This document shows positions 1 through 10,323 of a stretch of DNA of 43,652 nucleotides, piece after piece. Made by a program: the position numbers and the translations under genes. The DNA is from Blastococcus mobilis (GTDB lineage Bacteria; Actinomycetota; Actinomycetes; Mycobacteriales; Geodermatophilaceae), in assembly GCF_900188025.1 (NCBI RefSeq), contig NZ_FZNO01000033.1, positions 1 to 43,652 of the forward strand, in the 5' to 3' direction. The number at the start of each line of letters is the position of its first letter. Within the stretch, counting starts at the first letter, position 1. Below the pieces are notes generated by a model. It did no database searches. It was not told where the DNA came from and saw only the letters and a list, made by a program, of their open reading frames with translations.

Positions 1-102
1 GCCATCATCGCCACCGGCCTCGAGCAGTGCATCACCGCCGGCGAGGACGGCAACACCCTCGACCGCGCCCGACTCGAGAAGCTCTTCCTCTCCCTGGCCT
101 GA
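1..102 (+). CDS. C-terminal end of an unidentified protein (partial)
   Basis: An open frame enters from the left edge and ends at TGA 100-102, giving 33 residues that finish DRARLEKLFLSLA. The segment is helical in character but too short to name a family. It converges on the class II aldolase gene, whose corrected stop is at 120, leaving 17 bp between them. Frame and codon use fit a real high-GC gene. The function is unknown from what is visible. Confidence 0.6.
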   Translation, partial: AIIATGLEQCITAGEDGNTLDRARLEKLFLSLA

Positions 103-962: not shown

Positions 963-2324
963 CTACTCGTCCTCCAGCCCCGCCTTCCCAGCGGCGTCGT
1001 AGGAGTCGTTGATCAGGACGATGGAGCGGCCGGGCCGGTCCAGCACCGAGGCGGCGATCGACGCCCGGTAGCCCGATCCGCAGTAGACCCACACCTCGCC
1101 CCGCGGCACCTCGTCGAGCCGGTCGGCGAGCTCGTGCAGCGGGATGTGCTGCGAGCCGCGCACGAAGCCGTTCGCCCGCTCGTCGTTGCGCCGGGCATCG
1201 AGGACCTGCACCGGCCCCCGCTCCATCGCCTCGGCCAGGCCGGAGAAGTCGCTGACCGGGTACGAGCGCAACGGCTGCCCGTCGGCGACGGACTCGATGT
1301 CCCCGATCGCAGCGCCGGCCAGCTCGTCGACGCCAATCCGCACCAGCTCGCGGCGGGCCTCGGCCACCTGCTCCTCGCTCTCGCCGATCAGGGTCAGCGG
1401 CGCTCCCCAGCGGTAGAGCCACCCGAGGTAGGTCACGAAGTTGGTGCCGAGCTCGAAGTTCATCGAGTCGGCCAGATGACCGGCGGCGAACGCGGTGCGC
1501 TCGCGCAGGTCGACCACCCACTCGCCGGCCTCGATCCGCCGGCGCAGCTCTCCCGGGTCGACCCGCTCCGGGAGGGAGAGGTCGACCGGCGCGGGCCCAC
1601 GCCGGTTGATCGGCGCCATGCGGGCGTAGTAGGCCGGGTAGACGTCCAGCCCCGCGAGGAGGGTGTCGACGTACTGCTGCTCGGCCTGCGTCAGCGCGGG
1701 GTTGACCCGCTGCTGCTCACCGATGGTCGACGACGTGCCGCTGGTCGGAGTGGCTGAGCAGAAGCTGCCGAAGCCGTGCGTCGGGAACACCTGCGCCTCG
1801 GCCGGCAGCTCGCGGGCCAGCCGCCGCACCGAGTGGTACTGCGCGTGGGTCAGCTCGTCGGTGGCCTCCGGGCTGACCAGGTCCGTACGGCCGGTGGCCC
1901 CGTAGAGCATCGATCCGCCGGTGAACACGGCCTGGACGGTGCCGTCGCTGCCGGCGAGGGCGTAGCTGACGTGGTGGTGGGTGTGGCCGGGAGTGTGCAC
2001 GACCCGCAAGCGCATCCGGCCCGCCTCGATCACGTCGCCGTCGGACACCGCGACGTGGTCGACCTCCACGCCGCTCCCGCTCGGGAGGACGTAGGCGGCG
2101 CCCGCCCGGCGCGCGAGCTCCGGACCGCCGGTCACGTAGTCGTTGTGCACGTGCGTCTCCAGGACATGGCTGATCCGCACGCCGCGTCCGGCGACCAGGT
2201 CCACCACCCGGTCGATGTCGCGCTGCGGATCGACCACGACGGCGACCTCGCCATCGTCGACGAGGTAGCTCCGGTCACCCAGGCTGGAGGTCTCGATCGT
2301 CTGCACGTCGAACATGCACGTCAT
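963..2324 (-). CDS. metallo-beta-lactamase fold / double rhodanese protein (persulfide dioxygenase-sulfurtransferase like)
   Basis: The 453-residue protein begins with a metallo-beta-lactamase domain carrying THVHNDYVTGG (His58, His60, Asp62) and the second metal motif HTPGHTHHH near residue 111. This is the ETHE1/CstB type. A rhodanese-like domain without cysteine (VVDLRERTAFAAGHL) follows, then a C-terminal rhodanese with an active loop CGSGYR. Family knowledge suggests oxidation of glutathione or low-molecular-weight persulfide to sulfite plus sulfur transfer between thiols, in the cytosol. An alternative start is ATG 2315. A palindrome overlapping the likely promoter at 2332-2345 points to control by a CsoR/CstR-type repressor. 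The next gene upstream is DUF302. Confidence 0.9.
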   Translation of the reverse strand: MTCMFDVQTIETSSLGDRSYLVDDGEVAVVVDPQRDIDRVVDLVAGRGVRISHVLETHVHNDYVTGGPELARRAGAAYVLPSGSGVEVDHVAVSDGDVIEAGRMRLRVVHTPGHTHHHVSYALAGSDGTVQAVFTGGSMLYGATGRTDLVSPEATDELTHAQYHSVRRLARELPAEAQVFPTHGFGSFCSATPTSGTSSTIGEQQRVNPALTQAEQQYVDTLLAGLDVYPAYYARMAPINRRGPAPVDLSLPERVDPGELRRRIEAGEWVVDLRERTAFAAGHLADSMNFELGTNFVTYLGWLYRWGAPLTLIGESEEQVAEARRELVRIGVDELAGAAIGDIESVADGQPLRSYPVSDFSGLAEAMERGPVQVLDARRNDERANGFVRGSQHIPLHELADRLDEVPRGEVWVYCGSGYRASIAASVLDRPGRSIVLINDSYDAAGKAGLEDE

Positions 2325-2331
2325 CGTTCCC

Positions 2332-2345
2332 TACCCCGTAGGGTA
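2332..2345 (-). promoter_or_regulatory. candidate CsoR/CstR-family operator
   Basis: TACCC-N4-GGGTA is a perfect inverted repeat lying 7 bases before the ATG of the metallo-beta-lactamase/rhodanese gene. On the coding strand TACCCT within it could be the -10 hexamer (TAnnnT), so a bound protein would block transcription. G/C-tract palindromes flanked by TA are typical of CsoR, CstR and related copper or persulfide sensors. No gene for such a sensor is seen in the window, so the regulator would act from elsewhere. Confidence 0.5.
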
Positions 2346-2367
2346 CAAACCACGAGCGCCCGGCGGC

Positions 2368-2757
2368 TCAGCGCCGGGGCGCGGCCAGCGCCGCGTCCAG
2401 ACGGCGACCGGCCTCGTCGGCCATCGGCTGCAACTCCGGCCGCCCGGTCATCGAGACCATGGTCTGCGGGTGCATGACCTGCACCGTCGAGCCGTCGCCG
2501 GTCTGGCTCACCACGACGTTGCACGGCAGCAGGACGCCGACGCCGCGCTCGATCTCCAGCGCCTGCTGTGCCAGGTCGGGAGCGCAGGCGCCCAGGATCA
2601 GGTAGGGCTCCATCTCCACTCCCCGCTTCTGGCGCAGAGTGGCCTTCACGTCGATCTCGGTCAGGACGCCGAAGCCCTGCTCGGCCAGCGCCTCTCTCGT
2701 GCGCGTCACCGCCTCCGCGAACGGTAGAGCGAGGTCGAGGGTGCGTCGGTACTCCAT
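2368..2757 (-). CDS. DUF302 domain protein
   Basis: The 129-residue product starts MEYRRTLDLALPFAEAV and contains the DUF302 core with LPCNVVV (residues 79-85) and the ending PELQPMADEAGRRLDAALA. The start at 2757 follows AAGGAG by six bases, so the longer upstream reading is not used. DUF302 proteins are small cytosolic or periplasmic proteins of unknown function that recur beside rhodaneses, sulfur oxidation genes and metal resistance genes. Here the gene lies 43 bp upstream of the metallo-beta-lactamase/rhodanese gene on the same strand, but the operator between them suggests the second gene also has its own promoter. Confidence 0.85.
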   Translation of the reverse strand: MEYRRTLDLALPFAEAVTRTREALAEQGFGVLTEIDVKATLRQKRGVEMEPYLILGACAPDLAQQALEIERGVGVLLPCNVVVSQTGDGSTVQVMHPQTMVSMTGRPELQPMADEAGRRLDAALAAPRR

Positions 2758-2929
2758 GCACGACTCCTTCCGGTCCTTCCGGGACGCCGCCCGACGACGC
2801 TGCGCGGTCCACCGGCCCGGGCCGCCGGTCGGTGCGACGAGGTCTTGCCGTCGGTACCCCCACCGCCGTCCTCGTACCCCGCGGATCCACGTGCCGACGA
2901 GGCACCACGGTCGCCCCTCACCTGCGACG

Positions 2930-2956
2930 TTGCCTCCTCGCTGCTCTCTGCATAAT
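2930..2956 (+). promoter_or_regulatory. possible leaderless promoter for a small ORF
   Basis: TTGCCT (2930-2935), 15 bases, then CATAAT (2951-2956) resembles a sigma-70 promoter with a short spacer. The ATG at 2965 lies eight bases after the -10 box, which is where transcription would begin, so the transcript could be leaderless. GCATAA and TTATGC (2950-2955 and 2976-2981) form an inverted repeat around the start and could be an operator. Confidence 0.35.
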
Positions 2957-2964
2957 CTCGATCC

Positions 2965-3075
2965 ATGTACTGGGGTTATGCGAGGAGCCGGCCCGCGTTC
3001 TGCGTGTGCCTGCTCGCGGTGACCCCGCTCATGGTCGACGACCGGCTGTGTCCGGCCGGCACGCCCTCCCGCTGA
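2965..3075 (+). CDS. possible 36-residue small hydrophobic peptide
   Basis: The frame begins MYWGYARSRPAFCVCLLAV and ends at TGA 3073-3075. It has a short hydrophobic stretch, three cysteines (two as CVC) and no Shine-Dalgarno sequence. A -10-like CATAAT sits eight bases before the ATG, so translation would be from a leaderless transcript. Cysteine-containing leaderless small ORFs act as attenuators of sulfur genes in mycobacteria, but no sulfur gene follows on this strand. It may be a free-standing small membrane peptide or a chance frame. Confidence 0.3.
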   Translation: MYWGYARSRPAFCVCLLAVTPLMVDDRLCPAGTPSR

Positions 3076-3125
3076 GCGACCCTCAGCGGCCCCCGCGTCC
3101 GCCCGCACGCCTGTCGAAGGACCCG

Positions 3126-3305
3126 TTGACCGAGATCACCGCTCCCGTTCCCACTCAGCCGTTCGGCCTCGGTCCCGCGGCCGACGTGGCCGCACCGCCC
3201 GCCGCCCCGGTCGAGAGCAGCTCCGCCTCAGCCCGCCGCCGTCTCCGGTGGCGGCGCCTGACCTCTGCCGTCGCGGACGCACACCGGGCGGCCGTTCCCT
3301 TCTGA
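3126..3305 (+). CDS. possible small hypothetical protein, TTG start
   Basis: A TTG codon preceded by GAAGGA opens a 59-residue frame: a Pro/Ala-rich N-terminus, then a basic segment ARRRLRWRRLTSAV, ending at TGA 3303-3305. It lies 50 bp after the 36-residue frame on the same strand and could share its transcript. No family is recognised. The low-complexity composition and rare start leave it uncertain, but no other gene explains this stretch between the DUF302 and CtaG genes. Confidence 0.3.
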   Translation: MTEITAPVPTQPFGLGPAADVAAPPAAPVESSSASARRRLRWRRLTSAVADAHRAAVPF

Positions 3306-3344
3306 TGGCGAAAGCAGCCCTTTCACGGCATGGGGCGCGCGCAC

Positions 3345-4199
3345 TCACCCGCCGGCGGGCACGCCGCTGAGCGCCGCACCCGGTTGCCGCGCGAGCGCGC
3401 GCCCCGTGCGGCGGTACCAGGTGGCGAACACCGCGACGAGAAGCAGCAGGTCCGCGACGTGGCCGCCGTAGTACATCAACTGCGCCGCGGCCTCGACCTC
3501 GGCGGCGGCGTGGCCACTGCCCGCCGGCAGGCTCGCGGCGCGGGAGTACAGCAGCTTGGCCAAGAAGGCGTGGGCGCCACCGGCTGCGACCAGGACCGCC
3601 AGCCGTACGCCCATCCCTGGACGGCGCGGAGCGGGATCAGGGCCGGCCACCGCCCAGGCGAACAGGTAGCCGGCCAGCAGGAAGTGCAGGTGCAGCAGGT
3701 GGTGCACGACCTCCGAGCGGATGCTGAGGGCGTACAGCGGCGTGAGGTAGAGCAGGTAGAGGCCACCGATGCTGAGCACAGCGGCGGTGGCCACGTGCGA
3801 CAGCGCGTGCAGTGGCCGGGACCGCAGGACCGCCGCGACCGGCCGACGCGCGGCGACCGGGAGCCCGGCCAGCAGCAGGGACAGCGGTGCACCGAGCACG
3901 AGCGCGATCGGGGCGAACATGCCCAGCAGCAGGTGCTGCGCCATGTGGCCGCTGGCCGTGTCCGCGTCGACCGCCGGGGTCAGCGCCGCGCCGACCAGGA
4001 CGGCCCCCAGCAGGAAGCTTGCCGTCCGACGGCTGCTCCACCCGCGGCCGTTGCCGTGCAGCCGGGCGAGGCCGACGAGGTATCCGGCAACCAGCAGGGC
4101 CGTGACCAGCACCGACGGCAGCCACATCGCGGCCGAGGCGCCGGCATCGTGGGAGCCGCCGTGGGCCAGGGGTACGAGGGCGACGCCCATGACGCTCAA
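3345..4199 (-). CDS. cytochrome c oxidase assembly protein, caa3-type CtaG family
   Basis: The 284-residue integral membrane protein has about seven hydrophobic segments and histidine-rich turns typical of the caa3-type CtaG family: GHMAQHLLLGMFAP, then EVVHHLLHLHFLLAGYLFAW and a later YYGGHVADLLLL. Family members assist insertion of copper into haem-copper oxidase. It starts four bases after the stop of the DUF2243 gene, so the two are almost certainly co-transcribed and translationally coupled. Actinobacteria have several paralogues; being outside an oxidase operon suggests an accessory or copper-handling role here. Confidence 0.85.
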   Translation of the reverse strand: MSVMGVALVPLAHGGSHDAGASAAMWLPSVLVTALLVAGYLVGLARLHGNGRGWSSRRTASFLLGAVLVGAALTPAVDADTASGHMAQHLLLGMFAPIALVLGAPLSLLLAGLPVAARRPVAAVLRSRPLHALSHVATAAVLSIGGLYLLYLTPLYALSIRSEVVHHLLHLHFLLAGYLFAWAVAGPDPAPRRPGMGVRLAVLVAAGGAHAFLAKLLYSRAASLPAGSGHAAAEVEAAAQLMYYGGHVADLLLLVAVFATWYRRTGRALARQPGAALSGVPAGG

Positions 4200-4203
4200 C
4201 GTC

Positions 4204-4686
4204 TCAACGTCTGGCAGCCGGCGTGCGCCCCTCGTCCCGGGAGCGCCAGATCATGAAGGCGCCCACCAGCAGCAGCACCACCGCGGCACCGTTCCAGGCC
4301 AGGTCGTAGGGCAGCAGGTCGACGCCGTAGCGGATCTGGTGCAGGCGCAGGATCTTGTGGTCGACGATCCCGTCGAACAGGTGGAAGGCGCCGAGGCCGA
4401 GCACGAAGCCGGCCCACGCGGACCGCGGTGCCAGGGTTCCGCGGCGGCGGAGGTCCGCGAACCAGAAGAACCCGGCGACCAACAGCACCAGGTAGGCCGT
4501 CTGGAACAACCCGTCCGACAGCAGGCTGATGTCAGGGGTCGACCGGTCGTAGAAGTGGTGCCAGCGCAGCAACTGGTGGAAGACGATCTCGTCGATCGCG
4601 GCCATGATCGCGACGCCGAGCATGATGCCGGTGAGCACCGACCGGCGGCGGTCGACGGTGACCGACAGGTGCTGGGTCGGGGTCAT
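4204..4686 (-). CDS. DUF2243 membrane protein
   Basis: The 160-residue product has four predicted membrane segments and the family signatures DEIVFHQLLRWHHFYD, GLGAFHLFDGIVDHKILRLH and a C-terminal hydrophobic helix. The histidines in these segments could bind metal or haem, although the family function is unknown. ATG 4686 is chosen because GGGAGG lies six bases upstream; a longer frame from 4824 lacks such a site. It precedes the CtaG-like gene by four bases. The pairing suggests a joint role in oxidase assembly or copper or redox homeostasis. Confidence 0.85.
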   Translation of the reverse strand: MTPTQHLSVTVDRRRSVLTGIMLGVAIMAAIDEIVFHQLLRWHHFYDRSTPDISLLSDGLFQTAYLVLLVAGFFWFADLRRRGTLAPRSAWAGFVLGLGAFHLFDGIVDHKILRLHQIRYGVDLLPYDLAWNGAAVVLLLVGAFMIWRSRDEGRTPAARR

Positions 4687-4936
4687 GCGCTGCCTCCCGC
4701 GTGATGAAACGCCGACGGGCCCGCGAAGCTGCAGGTACGGCGGAACCGAGTTTTCGGCGACCAGACCCGTCGCGGCCGACCAGATGGCCACGTGATTCCT
4801 TCCCAGGAACTGCCCCGCGGGCATAGCCCCTCATCGGCGGACCTACACCAGGCCGATGACCGGGCCCGTCCACGTCCGCGTCGCCGATATCCGTGCTGGT
4901 GCGGGCGGCACTCGCACGGCGCCTACGGCCCCGGAT

Positions 4937-5515
4937 TCAGGGGCGCTGCGCGAACAGGAGCGTGTCGACAGCGGTGCCGGAGTCGGTCGACCGGTCGATC
5001 CGATCGAGGCGTGAGATGCGCCAGCCGGGGACCGCCCCACCGAGCAGCTCCGGGTCGTAGAGCAGGTCAGGGTCCTGCGGGCCGCCGGTCCTGCGGGTGA
5101 TGTTCTCCCGGTCGTGGCCGAGGACCAGCAGGTGCCCGCCCGGGCGAACGGCGGCGGCGGAACGCGCCAGCACGTCGACCAGTCGGGCGCGCGGCAGGTG
5201 CAGGTAGAGCACCAGTACCAGGTCGAACTGCCCGTTGCCCAGGTCGGCGGTGATCACGTCGGCGACGCGCCACGTGACCTGCGCTCCCGGCGGCGCGTTC
5301 TCCTGCCCCCGGCGGAGGCCGACGGCCGAGAAGTCGATCGCCTCGACCTCCCACCCTCCGGCGGCCAGCCACAGCGCCATGCGTCCTTCACCGGTCGCGA
5401 CGTCCAGGGCCCGGCCGGGTGGCAGCGATCCAATCAGCTCTGCAGCAGTGCGGTTCGGCTCCACCGACCACTGCCGTGCCTCGGCGTAGCGGCGGTCCCA
5501 CTCAGCGGCGTCCAC
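4937..5515 (-). CDS. class I SAM-dependent methyltransferase
   Basis: The 192-residue protein begins VDAAEWDRRYAEARQWSVEP, typical of the TehB/thiopurine-like methyltransferase group. Motif I is ALDVATGEGRMALWLA, followed by an acidic strand end (VEAIDFS) and FDLVLVLYLHLP. GTG 5515 is preferred because GGGAGGA lies seven to eight bases upstream; the frame extends to 5587 without better support. It is the last gene of the dsbA-ccdA-CPVC run, 31 bp after the CPVC gene. The substrate is unknown; detoxification of a chalcogen or other small molecule is possible from context only. Confidence 0.85.
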   Translation of the reverse strand: MDAAEWDRRYAEARQWSVEPNRTAAELIGSLPPGRALDVATGEGRMALWLAAGGWEVEAIDFSAVGLRRGQENAPPGAQVTWRVADVITADLGNGQFDLVLVLYLHLPRARLVDVLARSAAAVRPGGHLLVLGHDRENITRRTGGPQDPDLLYDPELLGGAVPGWRISRLDRIDRSTDSGTAVDTLLFAQRP

Positions 5516-5546
5516 GTCGTCTCCTCCCGATCGGTTCCGGTCCGGG

Positions 5547-6047
5547 TCAGCGGGCCTGCCGCGCGGTCGGCGAAGCGGGCACAGCACACGCCCACTCCCC
5601 CCGCAGTCTGCGGGTCAGCGCCCACGCCAGCAGGAGCAGCGCGAGAACGGAGAGCACCGGCTGGACCGGCTCGAAGTACGTCATCGCACCGCTGGCGCCC
5701 AGGGCCAGCAGGACCAGCTTGTTGCAGACCGGACAACCCACGGCGAAGAAGGTCAGGAGTCCGCCGGCACCGCCCCACAAGCGCGACCGGCGCTCGTCCT
5801 CGTCCGGAGCCGGGCCCGGCGAACCTGGTTCCCGCGCGTAGGTGGCCACGAGCAACCCGGCGAGCACCGCGCTCGCCAGCAGAGCCGGCCAGGACCACCA
5901 CGTGGGCGGCACTTCCCGGCTGAAGACCGGCGTGTCGATGAGGTCGGTCGGGACGGCGACCACCACCACGCCGACCGCGGTCATCGCGAGCGCCGTGAGC
6001 CAGCGCCGGCGGCCCCAAGCCCGGAGCGCCAGGTACATCGAGGTCAT
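5547..6047 (-). CDS. small membrane protein with intramembrane CPVCNK motif
   Basis: The 166-residue product has four hydrophobic segments (about 18-35, 50-69, 93-116 and 126-145). The third carries GCPVCNKLV with Cys105 and Cys108, a dithiol at the membrane. No named family is certain. It overlaps the ccdA-like gene by 4 bp (ATG 6047, ccdA stop 6044) and is followed by the methyltransferase. Its place between a CcdA-like electron carrier and a DsbA-like thioredoxin suggests that it passes electrons or disulfides in the same relay. Similar CPxCNK proteins are usually annotated as hypothetical. Confidence 0.75.
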   Translation of the reverse strand: MTSMYLALRAWGRRRWLTALAMTAVGVVVVAVPTDLIDTPVFSREVPPTWWSWPALLASAVLAGLLVATYAREPGSPGPAPDEDERRSRLWGGAGGLLTFFAVGCPVCNKLVLLALGASGAMTYFEPVQPVLSVLALLLLAWALTRRLRGEWACAVPASPTARQAR

Positions 6048-6949
6048 CGGGACTCCTGTCGGTCGAGCACATCGAGCCTGTCGTCGTCAGTGCAGGCATC
6101 AGTGGTCCCGTTCCGGATCCGGTGCAGGCGGAGCGCGATGACGCCGAGGAGGAGCGCCGCGGCGGCCGCCAGCAACCAGACGTCGAGATCGCGCGCGGAC
6201 AGCTCGGTGATCCAGCGCTGCGCCTCGAACTCGAGGTCCGTGGTATCCCCGAACCCGAGGACGCCGGTGATGCCGGCGGTGCCGTCGAAGCGGAGGAACA
6301 GCCAGCCGATGGCGACGAACAGCGCGCCGGAGATCAGCTGGCTCGTGTGCAGCTGCCGGCCGCCGATGCGCAGCGGGCGGCCGCGCAGCCACCGGCGCCG
6401 TCCGAGGTCGAACCGGTCCCACAGCAGCGCGAGCACGAACATCGGCGCCGCCATCCCGAGGGCGTAGACGGCCAGCAGCAGCCCTCCGCCGACCACGCCG
6501 CCGTCGGTCGCGGCGAGGGTGAGGACGGCGCCGAGGATGGGCCCGGAGCAGAATCCGGCGAGGCCGTAGACCGCGCCCAGCGCAAAGGTCCCCGCCCACC
6601 CACGGGCCCGGCCCGGGGTGGCGACCCGGGCGCGGAGCCGGTCAGCTCCCGGCAGGCTGAAGCCGCCACCGAGGAGCTGCACCATCCCGAGAGCGATGAT
6701 CGTCCAGCCGGCGACGGCGATCAGCACCTCCCGGTGCCCGTAGAAGAGCGTCGAGACAAGCGCCGACCCCACCCCGAGGGGCACCAGGGTCAGGCAGAGA
6801 CCCAGCCAGAAGACGACGGTCCGGGCGAGCAGCTCACGCGGATGCGCGAAGGCGTAGGCGAAGAAGGACGGCAGCAGGAGCGCGCTGCAGGGGCTGATGA
6901 GCGTCAGCGAGCCGCCGAGGAACGCGGCCGCGAGTCCGAGCTCACCCAT
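6044..6949 (-). CDS. CcdA/DsbD-type cytochrome c biogenesis transmembrane protein
   Basis: The 301-residue integral membrane protein has the family's two active cysteines: ISPCSALLLPS (Cys21) in the first segment and GLAGFCSGPILG (Cys134) in the fourth. CcdA proteins carry reducing equivalents from cytosolic thioredoxin across the membrane to extracytoplasmic thiol proteins. A C-terminal extra segment (residues about 215-285) ends in a membrane helix and an arginine-rich tail. It overlaps the upstream dsbA-like gene by 8 bp and the CPVC gene by 4 bp, so the three are coupled. The natural partner is the DsbA-like protein upstream. Confidence 0.9.
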   Translation of the reverse strand: MGELGLAAAFLGGSLTLISPCSALLLPSFFAYAFAHPRELLARTVVFWLGLCLTLVPLGVGSALVSTLFYGHREVLIAVAGWTIIALGMVQLLGGGFSLPGADRLRARVATPGRARGWAGTFALGAVYGLAGFCSGPILGAVLTLAATDGGVVGGGLLLAVYALGMAAPMFVLALLWDRFDLGRRRWLRGRPLRIGGRQLHTSQLISGALFVAIGWLFLRFDGTAGITGVLGFGDTTDLEFEAQRWITELSARDLDVWLLAAAAALLLGVIALRLHRIRNGTTDACTDDDRLDVLDRQESR

Positions 6950-7718
6950 CGGACGCGGCCTGCTGGGCAGCCTGCTCGATGGCCTCGACGAAGGTGTCGG
7001 TGGGCTGCGCGCCCATGATCGGACGGCCGTTGACGAGGAAGGCGGGCGTGCCCGCGATGCCGAGTTGCTGACCCTCCTGGAAGTCGGCGGTGACCGCGTC
7101 GAGGGTCTGCTGCGACTGCATCGTCGCCGTGAACCGCTCGACGTCGAGGCCGAGATCTGCGGCGACCCCGGTCAGCACCTCGTCAGTCAGCTGCCCGCTG
7201 TTCGGCGGGAACCCCAAGGCGTACACCGCGTCGTGGTACTGCCAGAAGGCGCCCTGCTCCCCCGCCGCCCGCGCGGCCCGTGCCGCCTGGACCGACTGCT
7301 CACCGAAGTAGGGGAAGTCCCGCCACTCCAGCCGCAGGATGCCGTCCTCGACGAACCGGTCGACGAGCACGGGCTCGGTCTCCTGGGCGAACTTCGCACA
7401 GAAGGGGCATTGGAAGTCCTCCCACATGACGAGGACGACCGGCGCGTCGGCGTCCCCCTGGGCCAGCGGGTCGCCGGGGATGCGCCGGGCCAGCGTGTCG
7501 GCCGGTTCTCCCGTCTCGCTCCCGCCGTCGTGGCGCACGTCCGCGACCGGGGCGCCGCCACCATCCTTCCCGTCCCCGCGACCGAGACCCCAGACGACGG
7601 CGACGACGCCGAGCACGACGACCACGGCCAACGCGATGAGCGGCCCGCGCAGGGCCTGTGCCGTCGAGGATCGACCGGTGGCGGATCCGCTCCGCGTGGA
7701 TGGATCAGGGCTGGGCAC
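6942..7718 (-). CDS. membrane-anchored DsbA-like thioredoxin-fold protein
   Basis: The 258-residue protein has one N-terminal membrane anchor (residues about 24-46, LRGPLIALAVVVVLGVVAVV), an acidic linker, and a DsbA/Thioredoxin_4 domain with WEDFQCPFCAKF (Cys104, Cys107) and a cis-proline loop AGTPAFLVNG. It should act outside the membrane as a disulfide oxidoreductase. GTG 7718 is chosen because AGGGGG lies seven bases upstream; the longer frame from 7859 crosses the promoter and operator region. It opens the run dsbA-ccdA-CPVC-methyltransferase and is divergent from the gntR gene, with a palindromic operator between them. Confidence 0.88.
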   Translation of the reverse strand: MPSPDPSTRSGSATGRSSTAQALRGPLIALAVVVVLGVVAVVWGLGRGDGKDGGGAPVADVRHDGGSETGEPADTLARRIPGDPLAQGDADAPVVLVMWEDFQCPFCAKFAQETEPVLVDRFVEDGILRLEWRDFPYFGEQSVQAARAARAAGEQGAFWQYHDAVYALGFPPNSGQLTDEVLTGVAADLGLDVERFTATMQSQQTLDAVTADFQEGQQLGIAGTPAFLVNGRPIMGAQPTDTFVEAIEQAAQQAASDG

Positions 7719-7752
7719 GATGTTCCCCCTAGCGCGCCGAGGTCGGCGCGCC

Positions 7753-7766
7753 GTTGTCCAGACAAC
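7753..7766. promoter_or_regulatory. GntR/HutC-type operator between dsbA-like and gntR genes
   Basis: GTTGTCCAGACAAC is a perfect 6-bp inverted repeat with a CA centre. It resembles the GTCTAGAC core bound by HutC-subfamily GntR regulators such as DasR and NagR. It lies 35 bp before the GTG of the dsbA-like gene and 77 bp before the ATG of gntR, so one bound dimer could control both directions. A weaker related half-palindrome, TTGACCGTACAA, follows at 7777-7788. Confidence 0.65.
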
Positions 7767-7843
7767 CGATCTAGTGTTGACCGTACAAGGGCGGTTCGCT
7801 GAGGCGTTCCACCACCCGCCCAGGGTTCGGATCTGGAGGGCCG

Positions 7844-8659
7844 ATGTCGGAGGGACCATCCGGACCGCCGGCAGTACGGCTGGACCGAAGCTCTAGCACG
7901 CCGCTGTGGCGCCAGCTGGCCCACGATCTCCGGAGCCGGCTGGACCGAGGGGAGTTCGGTCGCGGCCTCCCGGGTGAGTTCGAGCTCGGCCTCCAGTACT
8001 CGGTCAGCCGGCACACGGTCCGGGAGGCGTTGCGCCAGTTGCGTGTCGACGGCGTGATCAGCACCGGGCGCGGGCGGCGACCACGGCTCGCCGCACCCGA
8101 CCCGGTCATCGCCCAGCCCACAGGGGTCGCCTACTCGCTGTTCTCCTCCGTGGAGGCCCGCGGGTTGGTGCAGACATCTGTGGTCCGCGTGCTGACCGTG
8201 CGGGCCGACGGCGTCATCGCTCCCCGGCTGGGACTGGAGGAGTCGACACCCCTCGTCCACCTCGAGCGGCTACGCCTGGCCGACGACCGGCCGCTGGCCC
8301 TCGACCGCGTATGGCTGCCCGCGTCCGTCGGCGAACCGCTGCTGGACGTCGACTTCCGCCGCACCAGCCTCTACGAGGAGCTCGCCCGGACCGGCATCGC
8401 CATCACCGGCGGGCAGGAGACGGTCCGGGCGGTCATCCCGAGCCGCGCTGAGCACGACGCACTCGGCCTGCAGCCACCGTCGGCAGTCTTCTCGGTCCAG
8501 CGGACCGGAACGAGCTCCGGCGTCCCCATCGAGTGGCGGCACACCCTCATCCGGGCCGACCGCTTCGCACTGACCAGCACGCTGAACCCCGGGCCCGGAG
8601 CGACCGAGCCACCCAGCGGCGGGATCCCCGTCTCGACGCTCACGCCGAGCTTCGGCTGA
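7844..8659 (+). CDS. GntR family transcriptional regulator, HutC subfamily (UTRA domain)
   Basis: The 271-residue protein has an N-terminal winged helix (residues about 20-85; TPLWRQLAHDLRSRLDRGEF, YSVSRHTVREALRQLRVDG) and a C-terminal UTRA effector domain (about 95-245) with ESTPLVHLERLRLADDRPLA and VPIEWRHTLIRADRF. ATG 7844 follows GGAGG by four bases. HutC regulators sense small ligands and bind short palindromes; a fitting site lies upstream at 7753-7766. It heads the run gntR-rhodanese-tauE and is divergent from dsbA-ccdA. The effector is unknown; the neighbours suggest a sulfur compound, although the family usually senses sugars, amino acids or related metabolites. Confidence 0.92.
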   Translation: MSEGPSGPPAVRLDRSSSTPLWRQLAHDLRSRLDRGEFGRGLPGEFELGLQYSVSRHTVREALRQLRVDGVISTGRGRRPRLAAPDPVIAQPTGVAYSLFSSVEARGLVQTSVVRVLTVRADGVIAPRLGLEESTPLVHLERLRLADDRPLALDRVWLPASVGEPLLDVDFRRTSLYEELARTGIAITGGQETVRAVIPSRAEHDALGLQPPSAVFSVQRTGTSSGVPIEWRHTLIRADRFALTSTLNPGPGATEPPSGGIPVSTLTPSFG

Positions 8660-8678
8660 CCCCAAGGAAGGAACGACC

Positions 8679-9032
8679 ATGACCGAGGCGTCCCCGCCCA
8701 CCCGGCTCCCCGACCTGAATCCCGTCGAGGCCGCCGAGCTGCTCGAACGAGGCGAGGCAGTGCTGCTCGACGTCCGCGAGCCGCAGGAGTGGGCAGCCGG
8801 CCACGCCCCCCAGGCCGAGCACCTCCCGCTCGGCCAGGTCACCCCGGCAGCGGTTCCGCAGGCGCAACCGGTCATCGCCATCTGCCGGTCCGGCAACCGC
8901 TCCGGCAAGGCCGCCGACACCCTGGCCGCAGCAGGGGTGCGGGTGCACAACCTGACGGGCGGCATGAAGGCGTGGGCCCAGGCGGGCCTGCCGGTCGTCA
9001 CCGACGACGGGAAGCCGGGCGCGGTCGCGTGA
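8679..9032 (+). CDS. single-domain rhodanese (sulfurtransferase)
   Basis: The 117-residue protein is one rhodanese domain with VLLDVREPQEWAAGHAPQAE and an active loop CRSGNRS (Cys69). It ends GGMKAWAQAGLPVVTDDG, typical of GlpE/PspE-like enzymes that move sulfane sulfur to thiols or cyanide. ATG 8679 has AAGGAAGGAA upstream. It lies 19 bp after gntR, and its TGA overlaps the GTG of the TauE/SafE gene by 4 bp, so sulfur transfer and anion transport are translationally coupled. Confidence 0.93.
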   Translation: MTEASPPTRLPDLNPVEAAELLERGEAVLLDVREPQEWAAGHAPQAEHLPLGQVTPAAVPQAQPVIAICRSGNRSGKAADTLAAAGVRVHNLTGGMKAWAQAGLPVVTDDGKPGAVA

Positions 9033-9820
9033 CCGTCGCCGCGGTCGGGCTCGGACTGCTCATCGGCCTGAGCCTGGGCGCACTCGGCGGCGGCGGCTCG
9101 ATCCTGACCGTGCCCGCCCTGGTGTACGTCATCGGCCAGGACGCCCGTGCCGCGACGACCAGCAGCCTGTTCATCGTCGGCATCAGCTCGGTCATCGCCG
9201 CGCTCGGCCACGCCCGCAGCGGGCAGGTGCGCTGGGGCGTCGGCGTCGTCTTCGGGGCCACCGGCATCGCGGCCGGCTTCGCCGGGACCGCCGCCAACCA
9301 GCTCGTGGACCCCGACGTCCTCCTGCTCGCCTTCGCCGCGGTCATCGTCGTCGCCGCAGTGGGCATGCTCGCCAACAGTCGAGGCGAGGAGCCCGCGCCG
9401 CCGCAGCAGAACGACGCTCAAGAGCCCGCACGGCGCTGGACACCCGGACGGATCGGAAAGGTCGGCGGCGCCGGTCTGGTGGTCGGCTTCATGACCGGCT
9501 TCTTCGGCGTCGGCGGGGGCTTCGTGATCGTCCCGGCCCTCACCCTCGCCCTAGGCATGTCCATGCCACAGGCGGTCGCCACGTCACTGGTCGTCATCTC
9601 GATCAACTCCGCCGGCGCGCTGCTGGCGCGGGCCGGCACGGCCCACTTCGACTGGGCCGTGATCGTCCCGTTCACGCTTGCTGCCATCGCGGGGTCGCTG
9701 GGCGGCAAGACGGTGACCGACCGCGTCCCCGGCACGACCCTCACCCGCGCCTTCGCCGTCCTGCTCATCGCCGTCGCGGTCTACACCGCCACGTCGAGCC
9801 TGGTCTCGCTCCTCGGCTGA
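9029..9820 (+). CDS. TauE/SafE family sulfite or organosulfonate exporter-like permease
   Basis: The 263-residue membrane protein has the two-fold repeated family core: GLLIGLSLGALGGGGSILTV near the N-terminus and GFMTGFFGVGGGFVIVPALT after residue 150, with about eight membrane helices. Members export sulfite or sulfoacetate or move related anions. GTG 9029 overlaps the rhodanese stop by 4 bp; a longer frame from 8789 would run through the rhodanese gene. With a cytosolic persulfide dioxygenase-like enzyme encoded nearby, export of sulfite is a reasonable proposal, though the substrate is not shown by sequence. Confidence 0.92.
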   Translation: MTVAAVGLGLLIGLSLGALGGGGSILTVPALVYVIGQDARAATTSSLFIVGISSVIAALGHARSGQVRWGVGVVFGATGIAAGFAGTAANQLVDPDVLLLAFAAVIVVAAVGMLANSRGEEPAPPQQNDAQEPARRWTPGRIGKVGGAGLVVGFMTGFFGVGGGFVIVPALTLALGMSMPQAVATSLVVISINSAGALLARAGTAHFDWAVIVPFTLAAIAGSLGGKTVTDRVPGTTLTRAFAVLLIAVAVYTATSSLVSLLG

Positions 9821-9850
9821 CTGTGAGCATGGCCGGGTCGGTGTCCATCG

Positions 9851-10250
9851 GTGATGAGCTGGCGGCCGGTGGCAGCGGGCGTGACCCTTCGGCTGACTGG
9901 TTTCGTGCCTTGCTGTGGACTGATTGACGCCTACACCGGCGGAGTGCTGGCCCGAGCCACCGTGCCTGCTGATCCTGACGACTACGTCGAACTGTCCGGC
10001 TCAGCCTGGCGGCAGACCGGCTTCGTGTTCACCACCGAGTTCGGCGACCCGTGCGATCCGCGGAACGCCTTTCGGGCGCTCCGGGTCGCCGCCGCCAAGG
10101 CCGGGCTGCCGCACGCCGGGCTGCACACGCTGCGCCACTCGGCGGCCAGCGTCATGCTCACCCGCGGCGTCCCGCTCAAGGTGGTGGAGAAGCGGTCAGG
10201 GGCCGTTCCGGATCTCTCCGGAACGGCCCCTGAGCTGCGGTTCCCGCTGT

Positions 10251-10258
<8 letters not shown>
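9851..10258 (+). pseudogene. tyrosine recombinase (phage-type integrase) remnant
   Basis: The frame preserves part of the catalytic domain: GFVFTTEFGDPCDPRNAFRA, then GLHTLRHSAASVMLTRGVPL with the HxLRH box. Before residue 50 similarity fades, and after VVEK the frame reads into a hairpin and stops inside the tRNA-Pro gene, so the catalytic tyrosine and second histidine region are lost. It lies against the 3' end of tRNA-Pro, the usual target of such integrases. It is best read as the scar of an integrated element that supplied the accessory genes to its left. It is not expected to be active. Confidence 0.8.
10196..10233 (-). terminator. perfect 16-bp hairpin, likely tRNA-Pro terminator
   Basis: TCAGGGGCCGTTCCGG (10196-10211), a six-base loop, and its exact complement (10218-10233) form a very strong hairpin 17 bp past the 3' end of tRNA-Pro on the minus strand. 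No T-tract follows, as is common in GC-rich actinobacteria. The integrase remnant's last codons are read through it, which shows that this ending is not original integrase coding sequence. Confidence 0.75.

Positions 10259-10323
<65 letters not shown>

Follow-up and report, generated by a model that had tools for sequence, protein, structure and literature searches.

A candidate island for protection against reactive sulfur in Blastococcus mobilis, and the MerT-like membrane dithiol protein that it carries

Our subject is a 43,652-nucleotide stretch of Blastococcus mobilis DNA (contig NZ_FZNO01000033.1; here, the window) and, within it, a block at 963-9820 that holds genes for persulfide chemistry, for thiol-disulfide exchange, and for a small membrane protein with a GCPVCNK motif, the CPVC protein. 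We find that the block holds together as a unit, one that is seen again in several actinobacteria. Our preferred reading, to which we give a probability of roughly 0.6, is that it forms an island protecting against reactive (sulfane) sulfur, with a cytosolic half for oxidation and export and an envelope half made of a DsbA-like protein, CcdA and CPVC. What looks new is CPVC as a family of its own, a MerT-like membrane dithiol protein, together with its link to a predicted operator.

The unit is defined by its relatives. Window DNA aligns with a Klenkia locus (L005; L numbers are our locus labels) and another Blastococcus locus (L006) over 968-4653 and 4937-9824 at 84-87% identity, with identical gene content and order in both, and likewise in L007 up to its contig end. 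Across the five loci L004-L008 the aligned pieces are 82-89% identical; L004 and L008 are partial blocks, the former without the methyltransferase-to-CtaG part and the latter without most of dsbA-ccdA and without PDO1, the persulfide dioxygenase (PDO) gene. Homology within the block breaks once, where a DUF1440-like gene, intact in L005-L008, is shortened to a 24-residue remnant (4723-4794, minus strand); Pfam gave no match, and the name DUF1440 is our assumption. Outside 968-9824, the sole window match to L004-L008 is the first 103 bases. An earlier reading of this DNA from its letters, the preliminary description, had proposed a single module at 963-9820; as homology ends at 968 and 9824, those coordinates are the borders of the conserved block, and the same block is indeed found outside one strain, in Klenkia and Blastococcus.

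The match at the window's start is part of a regulator. Positions 1-102 (plus strand) encode the end of a CstR-type repressor, 33 codons with the stop codon, the rest of the gene being lost at the contig edge; by tblastn and translation this DNA is 91-93% identical to the CstR genes of L004-L008. Pfam does not recognise the 33-codon piece by itself; it keeps the C-terminal sensor Cys and has Gly at the position of the His in copper CsoR. The window begins at base 1 of its contig (C80), and another contig of the genome, C55, breaks off inside the gene for a second TauE; in Blastococcus L006 the corresponding point is about 0.5 kb from the CstR piece; the persulfide locus therefore probably continues on C55. 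There, a second cluster (L092, 6982-9967) runs operator-rhodanese-PDO2-rhodanese-TauE2 until the contig edge ends it.

A palindrome, TACCC-N4-GGGTA, lies at 2332-2345, 7 bases before the start codon of PDO1 (963-2324, minus strand), and is likely a CstR operator. The ScCsoR protein of Streptomyces coelicolor binds the sequence ATACCn6GGTAT in front of the PDO gene there (PMC7533328); the window site matches the core TACCn6GGTA, and the outer A/T of the longer motif are G/G on the gene strand. The site is unique in the window even with one mismatch allowed, with 0.2 expected by shuffling. Genome-wide, such a site occurs six times, against one occurrence of the backward pattern that served as a control. 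Other sites stand before the rhodanese-PDO2 genes, 26 bases before a thioredoxin gene, and about 120 bases before a rhodanese gene adjoining a NicO nickel transporter; two of the six are not near a clear sulfur gene.

The same site accompanies sulfur genes well beyond this genome. Around CPVC genes in 80 named loci (the best 80 of 282, some of them near-copies of each other), we counted 96 strict sites and 3 backward ones. We scored single genes with a site within 200 bp upstream, so that later operon genes count as lacking one. Sites precede PDO (22/45), CstR (22/32), thioredoxin (19/25), CPVC (17/80), rhodanese (8/36), DUF302 (3/24) and lipoprotein rhodanese (1/12) genes; no site precedes DsbA (38 genes), CcdA (38), TauE (30), GntR (23), ArsR-rhodanese (20), CtaG (7), DUF2243 (7) or methyltransferase (6) genes, and the backward pattern scored 0 for every gene class. 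Under a second, wider set of distance limits, an operator lies directly before CPVC in 24 of the 80 loci. We also compared CsoR-family genes at 27 loci (from 16 of 17 genomes searched) and found that none of the 12 with the copper-ligand His has a site nearby, as against 10 of the 15 that lack this residue; none of the 24 regulators clustered near CPVC has that His, as judged by eye. The operator thus goes with CstR-type, not copper-type, repressors. From these sequence patterns, CstR would bind the TACCC-N4-GGGTA sites, and we see no support for an operator that responds to copper.

The cytosolic half resembles known systems. PDO1 combines a metallo-beta-lactamase and a rhodanese domain as in type III persulfide dioxygenases, and its fold matches 3tp9 (E 8.8e-65), 3r2u (E 2.6e-44) and ETHE1 4chl (E 6.4e-18). 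The same locus encodes a single-domain rhodanese (8679-9032, plus strand) with an active-site Cys (CRSGNR) and a TauE/SafE sulfite-exporter family protein (about 9029-9820, plus strand). The published S. coelicolor circuit has the same parts: ScPDO, which with TauE and a rhodanese is under ScCsoR control, oxidises persulfide, and it shares with the window the metallo-beta-lactamase-rhodanese PDO, TauE, the single rhodanese and a TACC-n6-GGTA site before pdo (PMC7533328), along with a CsoR-family repressor lacking the copper His, a feature we saw in loci that are probably from Streptomyces. These likenesses and the CstR gene piece support the proposal in the preliminary description of persulfide oxidation to sulfite followed by export; PDO1 activity is expected from kinship, and sulfite is its probable product. 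Relative to what is available of that account, the window adds DUF302 (2368-2757, minus strand; named by Pfam), DsbA-CcdA-CPVC with a GntR regulator, a methyltransferase and CtaG-DUF2243 (PMC7533328). The Staphylococcus aureus cst operon likewise has CstR, a CstB-type PDO and TauE; it also includes CstA and SQR, neither of which was noted in the window block, where SQR was not searched for (PMC5480029, in its available part).

The envelope half is a compact operon on the minus strand. A DsbA-like thioredoxin-fold protein with an N-terminal membrane anchor and a CPFC site (6942 to about 7718, with a likely GTG start at 7718) is followed by CcdA (6044-6949; Pfam DsbD_TM, 47 bits against a cut-off of 27.1), CPVC (5547-6047) and an S-adenosylmethionine-dependent methyltransferase (4937-5515). 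DsbA and CcdA overlap by 8 bp, CcdA and CPVC by 4 bp and, elsewhere, rhodanese and TauE by 4 bp, in agreement with the overlaps described before; the methyltransferase gene begins about 31 bp past CPVC and so does not overlap it. A GntR/UTRA regulator (7844-8659, plus strand) is divergent from dsbA and likely runs this operon. Every gene previously named in the block is present and matches its family, CPVC by a sub-threshold MerT match. The CstR 3' end, the operator and the DUF1440-like remnant had gone unmentioned, as had an integrase remnant and tRNA-Pro beyond the block.

The CPVC protein has about 166 residues, roughly four membrane helices and a C-terminal Cys. All 107 homologues compared share the G, C, P, V, N and K of GCPVCNK, and at least 90% also keep the motif's second Cys and, likewise, the C-terminal Cys; among 112 more distant rows, 101 have GCPVCNK, 9 another GCPxCNK and 2 neither. 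There is no Pfam family for the protein itself. The MerT profile (PF02411) matches 84 of the 107 members at E <=0.01; DsbD_TM is not among the 11 Pfam families that they match, and Sulf_transp is matched by just 2 at the same threshold. The alignment of CPVC with MerT covers profile positions 13-81 and takes in both the CPVC helix and the C-terminal Cys; CPVC differs from MerT in its score, which is below the cut-off, and in extra N-terminal helices. The CPVC pair stands where MerT has its vicinal Cys pair. In a tree of the 112 rows, the window protein falls in a clade (98/92) of 67 rows, of which 54 are near an operator, CstR, ArsR-rhodanese, PDO or lipoprotein rhodanese, 4 near DsbA and CcdA only, and 9 near none of these. 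The other 45 rows comprise 8 with such sulfur marks, 3 with DsbA and CcdA only, 29 with none and 5 in metal surroundings. Records titled Rubrivirga, Bifidobacterium breve and Acidobacteria (L038, L040, L076) carry actinobacterial CPVC genes and are probably wrongly binned contigs.

The surroundings of CPVC repeat the sulfur theme in several forms. Near the gene, a CstR-type regulator occurs at 24 and an ArsR-rhodanese at 16 of the 80 named loci. A class-wide sample had CPVC in 27 of 246 genomes; 24 of 30 places were retrieved and 3 dropped as the same DNA as named loci, leaving 21 further loci. With the wider limits, 7 of these have an operator 24-124 bp upstream (backward control, 0), 6 adjoin DsbA and CcdA, and 2 are near CstR and PDO. 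In a phylum-wide sample (CPVC in 19 of 246 genomes), PDO is present in 17 of 19 CPVC genomes versus 77 of 227 without CPVC (p 2.4e-6) and DUF302 in 14 of 19 versus 62 of 227 (p 8e-5); DUF2243 shows no association by genome (3/19 versus 22/227, p 0.3), all genome-level p values here and below being uncorrected for kinship. PDO is also found in 19 of 23 CPVC genomes of the class-wide sample, for which no baseline was run.

CPVC partners differ by lineage. DsbA-CcdA accompanies it in the window, Arthrobacter and Nocardioides. Cryobacterium instead has a lipoprotein rhodanese directly after it, and so does the family of Rubrobacter marinus (L148, the same DNA as L107, and L108 and L109, which share L148's family code; the L109 signal was judged by eye). 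A TlpA-like thioredoxin-fold protein lies 3 bases downstream of CPVC in L112, and another is near L178. In Cryobacterium, a paralogue often stands between CPVC and the lipoprotein rhodanese, and all 10 sequences of it, including one from Paenarthrobacter, have a C-x-x-C near the C-terminus. Seven Cryobacterium loci (L042, L047, L053, L065, L072, L073, L081) cluster thioredoxin, PDO, TauE, CstR, operator and CPVC, and six of the seven add the paralogue and the lipoprotein rhodanese. In six other loci (L032, L038, L043, L064, L069, L080), a conserved and unrelated gene set surrounds CPVC (BioY-like by eye, peptidase-like); L080 alone among them has an operator.

Our preferred mechanism would run as follows. 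Persulfide would release CstR from its operators, and PDO and rhodanese would then convert sulfane sulfur to sulfite for export by TauE. Polysulfides would also oxidise protein thiols, DsbA included, to disulfides; such polysulfide-driven disulfide formation, in DsbA among other proteins, has been described (PMC11921322, in its available part). A thioredoxin, encoded behind the same operator on contig C41, would feed CcdA, and CcdA in turn would hold the anchored, outer DsbA-like protein reduced and so undo the disulfides. CcdA and DsbA would accordingly work in the reducing direction. Genome context supports the DsbA-CcdA envelope relay of the preliminary description, with the chemistry of the relay still a proposal. 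CPVC, finally, would take sulfane sulfur from outside and deliver it through the membrane to rhodaneses of the cytosol. The claim that sulfane sulfur is moved by CPVC at all is the weakest point of our account, a guess of about one in three, and the full relay, from an outer rhodanese or DsbA-like protein to the CPVC pair, a cytosolic Cys, and then rhodanese and PDO, under CstR, ArsR-rhodanese or GntR control, is a tentative proposal. Sulfane sulfur is our best-guess cargo because of the MerT-like Cys layout and the lipoprotein rhodanese that follows CPVC in two distant lineages. In that layout the CPVC pair and the C-terminal Cys are likened to the two cysteine sites of MerT. YeeE/TsuA and SoxT importers offer a parallel, as their proposed task is the import of sulfane sulfur or thiosulfate to the cytosol by way of membrane cysteines; they have nine helices and 330-350 residues, far more than CPVC (PMC11582611, in its available part).

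CPVC could instead be a dithiol redox partner, a small DsbB/VKOR analogue or CcdA helper that repairs polysulfide-oxidised envelope thiols and carries no sulfur, likely by exchanging electrons with an outer DsbA-like, TlpA-like or rhodanese protein. The tight dsbA-ccdA-CPVC arrangement and the TlpA-like neighbours in L112 and near L178 fit such a role, as may an enoyl-CoA hydratase-family gene that adjoins CPVC in L096 and L098 and which, by eye, we take to be menB-like, a possible hint at quinones. CPVC stands alone under an operator in Demequina and others, however, with no dsbA or ccdA nearby; sulfur transfer would better suit the lipoprotein rhodanese partners, and the Pfam matches are weak ones to MerT rather than to DsbB, VKOR or DsbD. 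We hold this role to be possible but doubtful. Less probable still is that CPVC, as MerT does, carries a soft metal (copper or mercury), in an island that handles copper-sulfide stress with CtaG and DUF2243. The widespread MerT matches speak for it, as does the presence of CtaG-DUF2243 in the window. So do the loci L171 and L177 and plasmids of Rhodococcus, Streptomyces mirabilis and Rubrobacter, in all of which CPVC has copper or other metal genes near it. Yet by the labels of our tree, CopA or a copper CsoR lies within 8 kb in 4 of 61 sulfur-group loci versus 5 of 5 metal-group loci, the operator is absent near all 12 copper-type repressors, and we noted no mer gene (merA, merP) next to CPVC, where no search aimed at such genes was made. 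On balance we consider metal carriage unlikely.

It is improbable, too, that the 9 kb is a chance pile-up of two or three unrelated units (PDO-DUF302, CtaG-DUF2243, dsbA-ccdA-CPVC and rhodanese-tauE) in a rearranged region. An integrase remnant abutting tRNA-Pro and a rearranged, partly decayed copy on contig C41 speak for it, as does the usual position of CtaG-DUF2243 away from PDO; but PDO, CstR, TauE and dsbA-ccdA-CPVC recur jointly, in differing orders, in Nocardioides, Arthrobacter, Pseudonocardia and Streptomyces. For CtaG-DUF2243 alone, the pile-up reading is probably right.

Several observations weigh against the protective island as we picture it. No operator was found by the window search at the dsbA-ccdA-CPVC-methyltransferase operon. 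Read at 19 places in 18 genomes, the phylum-wide sample shows no operator and no CstR-type regulator near CPVC, DsbA and CcdA at 3 places and PDO at 1, so that the CPVC-operator link holds for the actinomycete clade and not for the entire family. Of the 21 further class-wide loci, 6 are without any mark, two of them near copper genes, and the 80 named loci, the best of 282, include near-copies. For the window protein, the MerT score is 21.1 bits, below the 32.9 cut-off, and a fold search gave no match. PDO1 itself has Gly in place of the GD-motif metal-site Asp of 3tp9 and 3r2u, a residue whose metal-binding role we assume from ETHE1. This GG-type site is shared by PDO2, by 29 of 29 readable sequences among 30 retrieved relatives, by 18 of the named set (against 13 with Asp), and by four loci, probably of Streptomyces, with TauE and paired sites before PDO.

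Most of the combination has been reported before. Antarctic Arthrobacter plasmids carry SUL and CYT modules with CsoR, PDO, rhodaneses, TauE and DUF302 beside CcdA and a DsbA-family protein; these modules also have DsrE, an MFS protein and a BlaI-type regulator, in which the window differs (PMC6305408, in its available part). DsrE belongs to the CYT part, and the window has no match to it at E 1e-3. Arthrobacter pA58H2 also carries a CPVC gene, and, judging from the gene count, one of the two CcdA proteins listed for the modules is probably CPVC (PMC6305408). Both the cytosolic circuit and the SUL/CYT combination are therefore already published, so that the module is less unfamiliar than the preliminary description supposed; the CPVC family and its operator link are not described in the available part of that report. 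Among the titles that searches of open-licence literature listed, none treats the CPVC protein in the persulfide response, and a search on DUF2243 gave no paper.

The block also bears signs of movement. A stretch of 16.4 kb is 99.8% identical between Klenkia L005 and Blastococcus L006, and Nocardioides allogilvus L011 and Knoellia remsis L012 share 9.7 kb at 99.97%, the entire sulfur block, with contamination possible for L012, whose contig is 10.5 kb. We viewed 12 plasmid regions out of 53 plasmid records matching CPVC. Near-complete versions occur on Arthrobacter pA58H2, on Arthrobacter pLDW-10 and pAD51, both of which were typed as conjugative, on Pseudonocardia pPA12743CP and on Streptomyces NBC_01197, and a Rhodococcus plasmid carries GntR, DsrE, CcdA, DsbA, CPVC, DUF302 and TauE; the remaining six regions have metal or copper genes around CPVC in five cases and neither in one, a further point that disfavours a sulfur role throughout. 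In the window, 9851-10258 is a phage-type integrase remnant, of which just the C-terminal part is left; its end reaches up to, and a little way into, tRNA-Pro (10249-10323) on the opposite strand, as after an old integration. The C41 copy (L090, 9485-13759) opens with an operator and thioredoxin, continues with fragments of CPVC and of the methyltransferase and with NicO and a rhodanese that have an operator, and closes with DUF1440-like, DUF2243 and CtaG genes. A class II aldolase-like gene (32-838) between the CstR end and PDO1 does not occur there in L004-L008, and its C-terminal part is unlike the rest of its family.

Caa3_CtaG, of a copper/oxidase assembly family (3345-4199, minus strand), and the DUF2243 membrane protein (4204-4686, minus strand), both named by Pfam, look like a separate, travelling unit that joined the island. 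CtaG is within about 1 kb, by eye, at at least 8 of 28 DUF2243 places. The preliminary description had asked for a check on whether CPVC, DUF302, DUF2243 and the PDO co-occur. CPVC does so with PDO by genome, and of 93 DUF302 places 17, the window's among them, have a PDO gene within 10 kb. For DUF2243 this holds at just 2 of 28 places, the window's included, so it is not a regular PDO neighbour, even as the two share genomes to some degree (16/25 versus 78/221, p 0.005). A role in sparing a copper oxidase under sulfide would be speculation.

The GG-type PDO raises the question of what coordinates the metal in the persulfide dioxygenases of actinobacteria. For sulfur oxidisers, the entry of sulfur into the cytosol and its sensing by regulators are described as poorly understood (PMC11582611, in its available part), and CPVC, a small protein repeatedly found beside a likely persulfide operator or outer thiol proteins, is a concrete candidate that can be tested by deletion. 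If our reading is true, CPVC would add a new component to the defences of bacteria against reactive sulfur.

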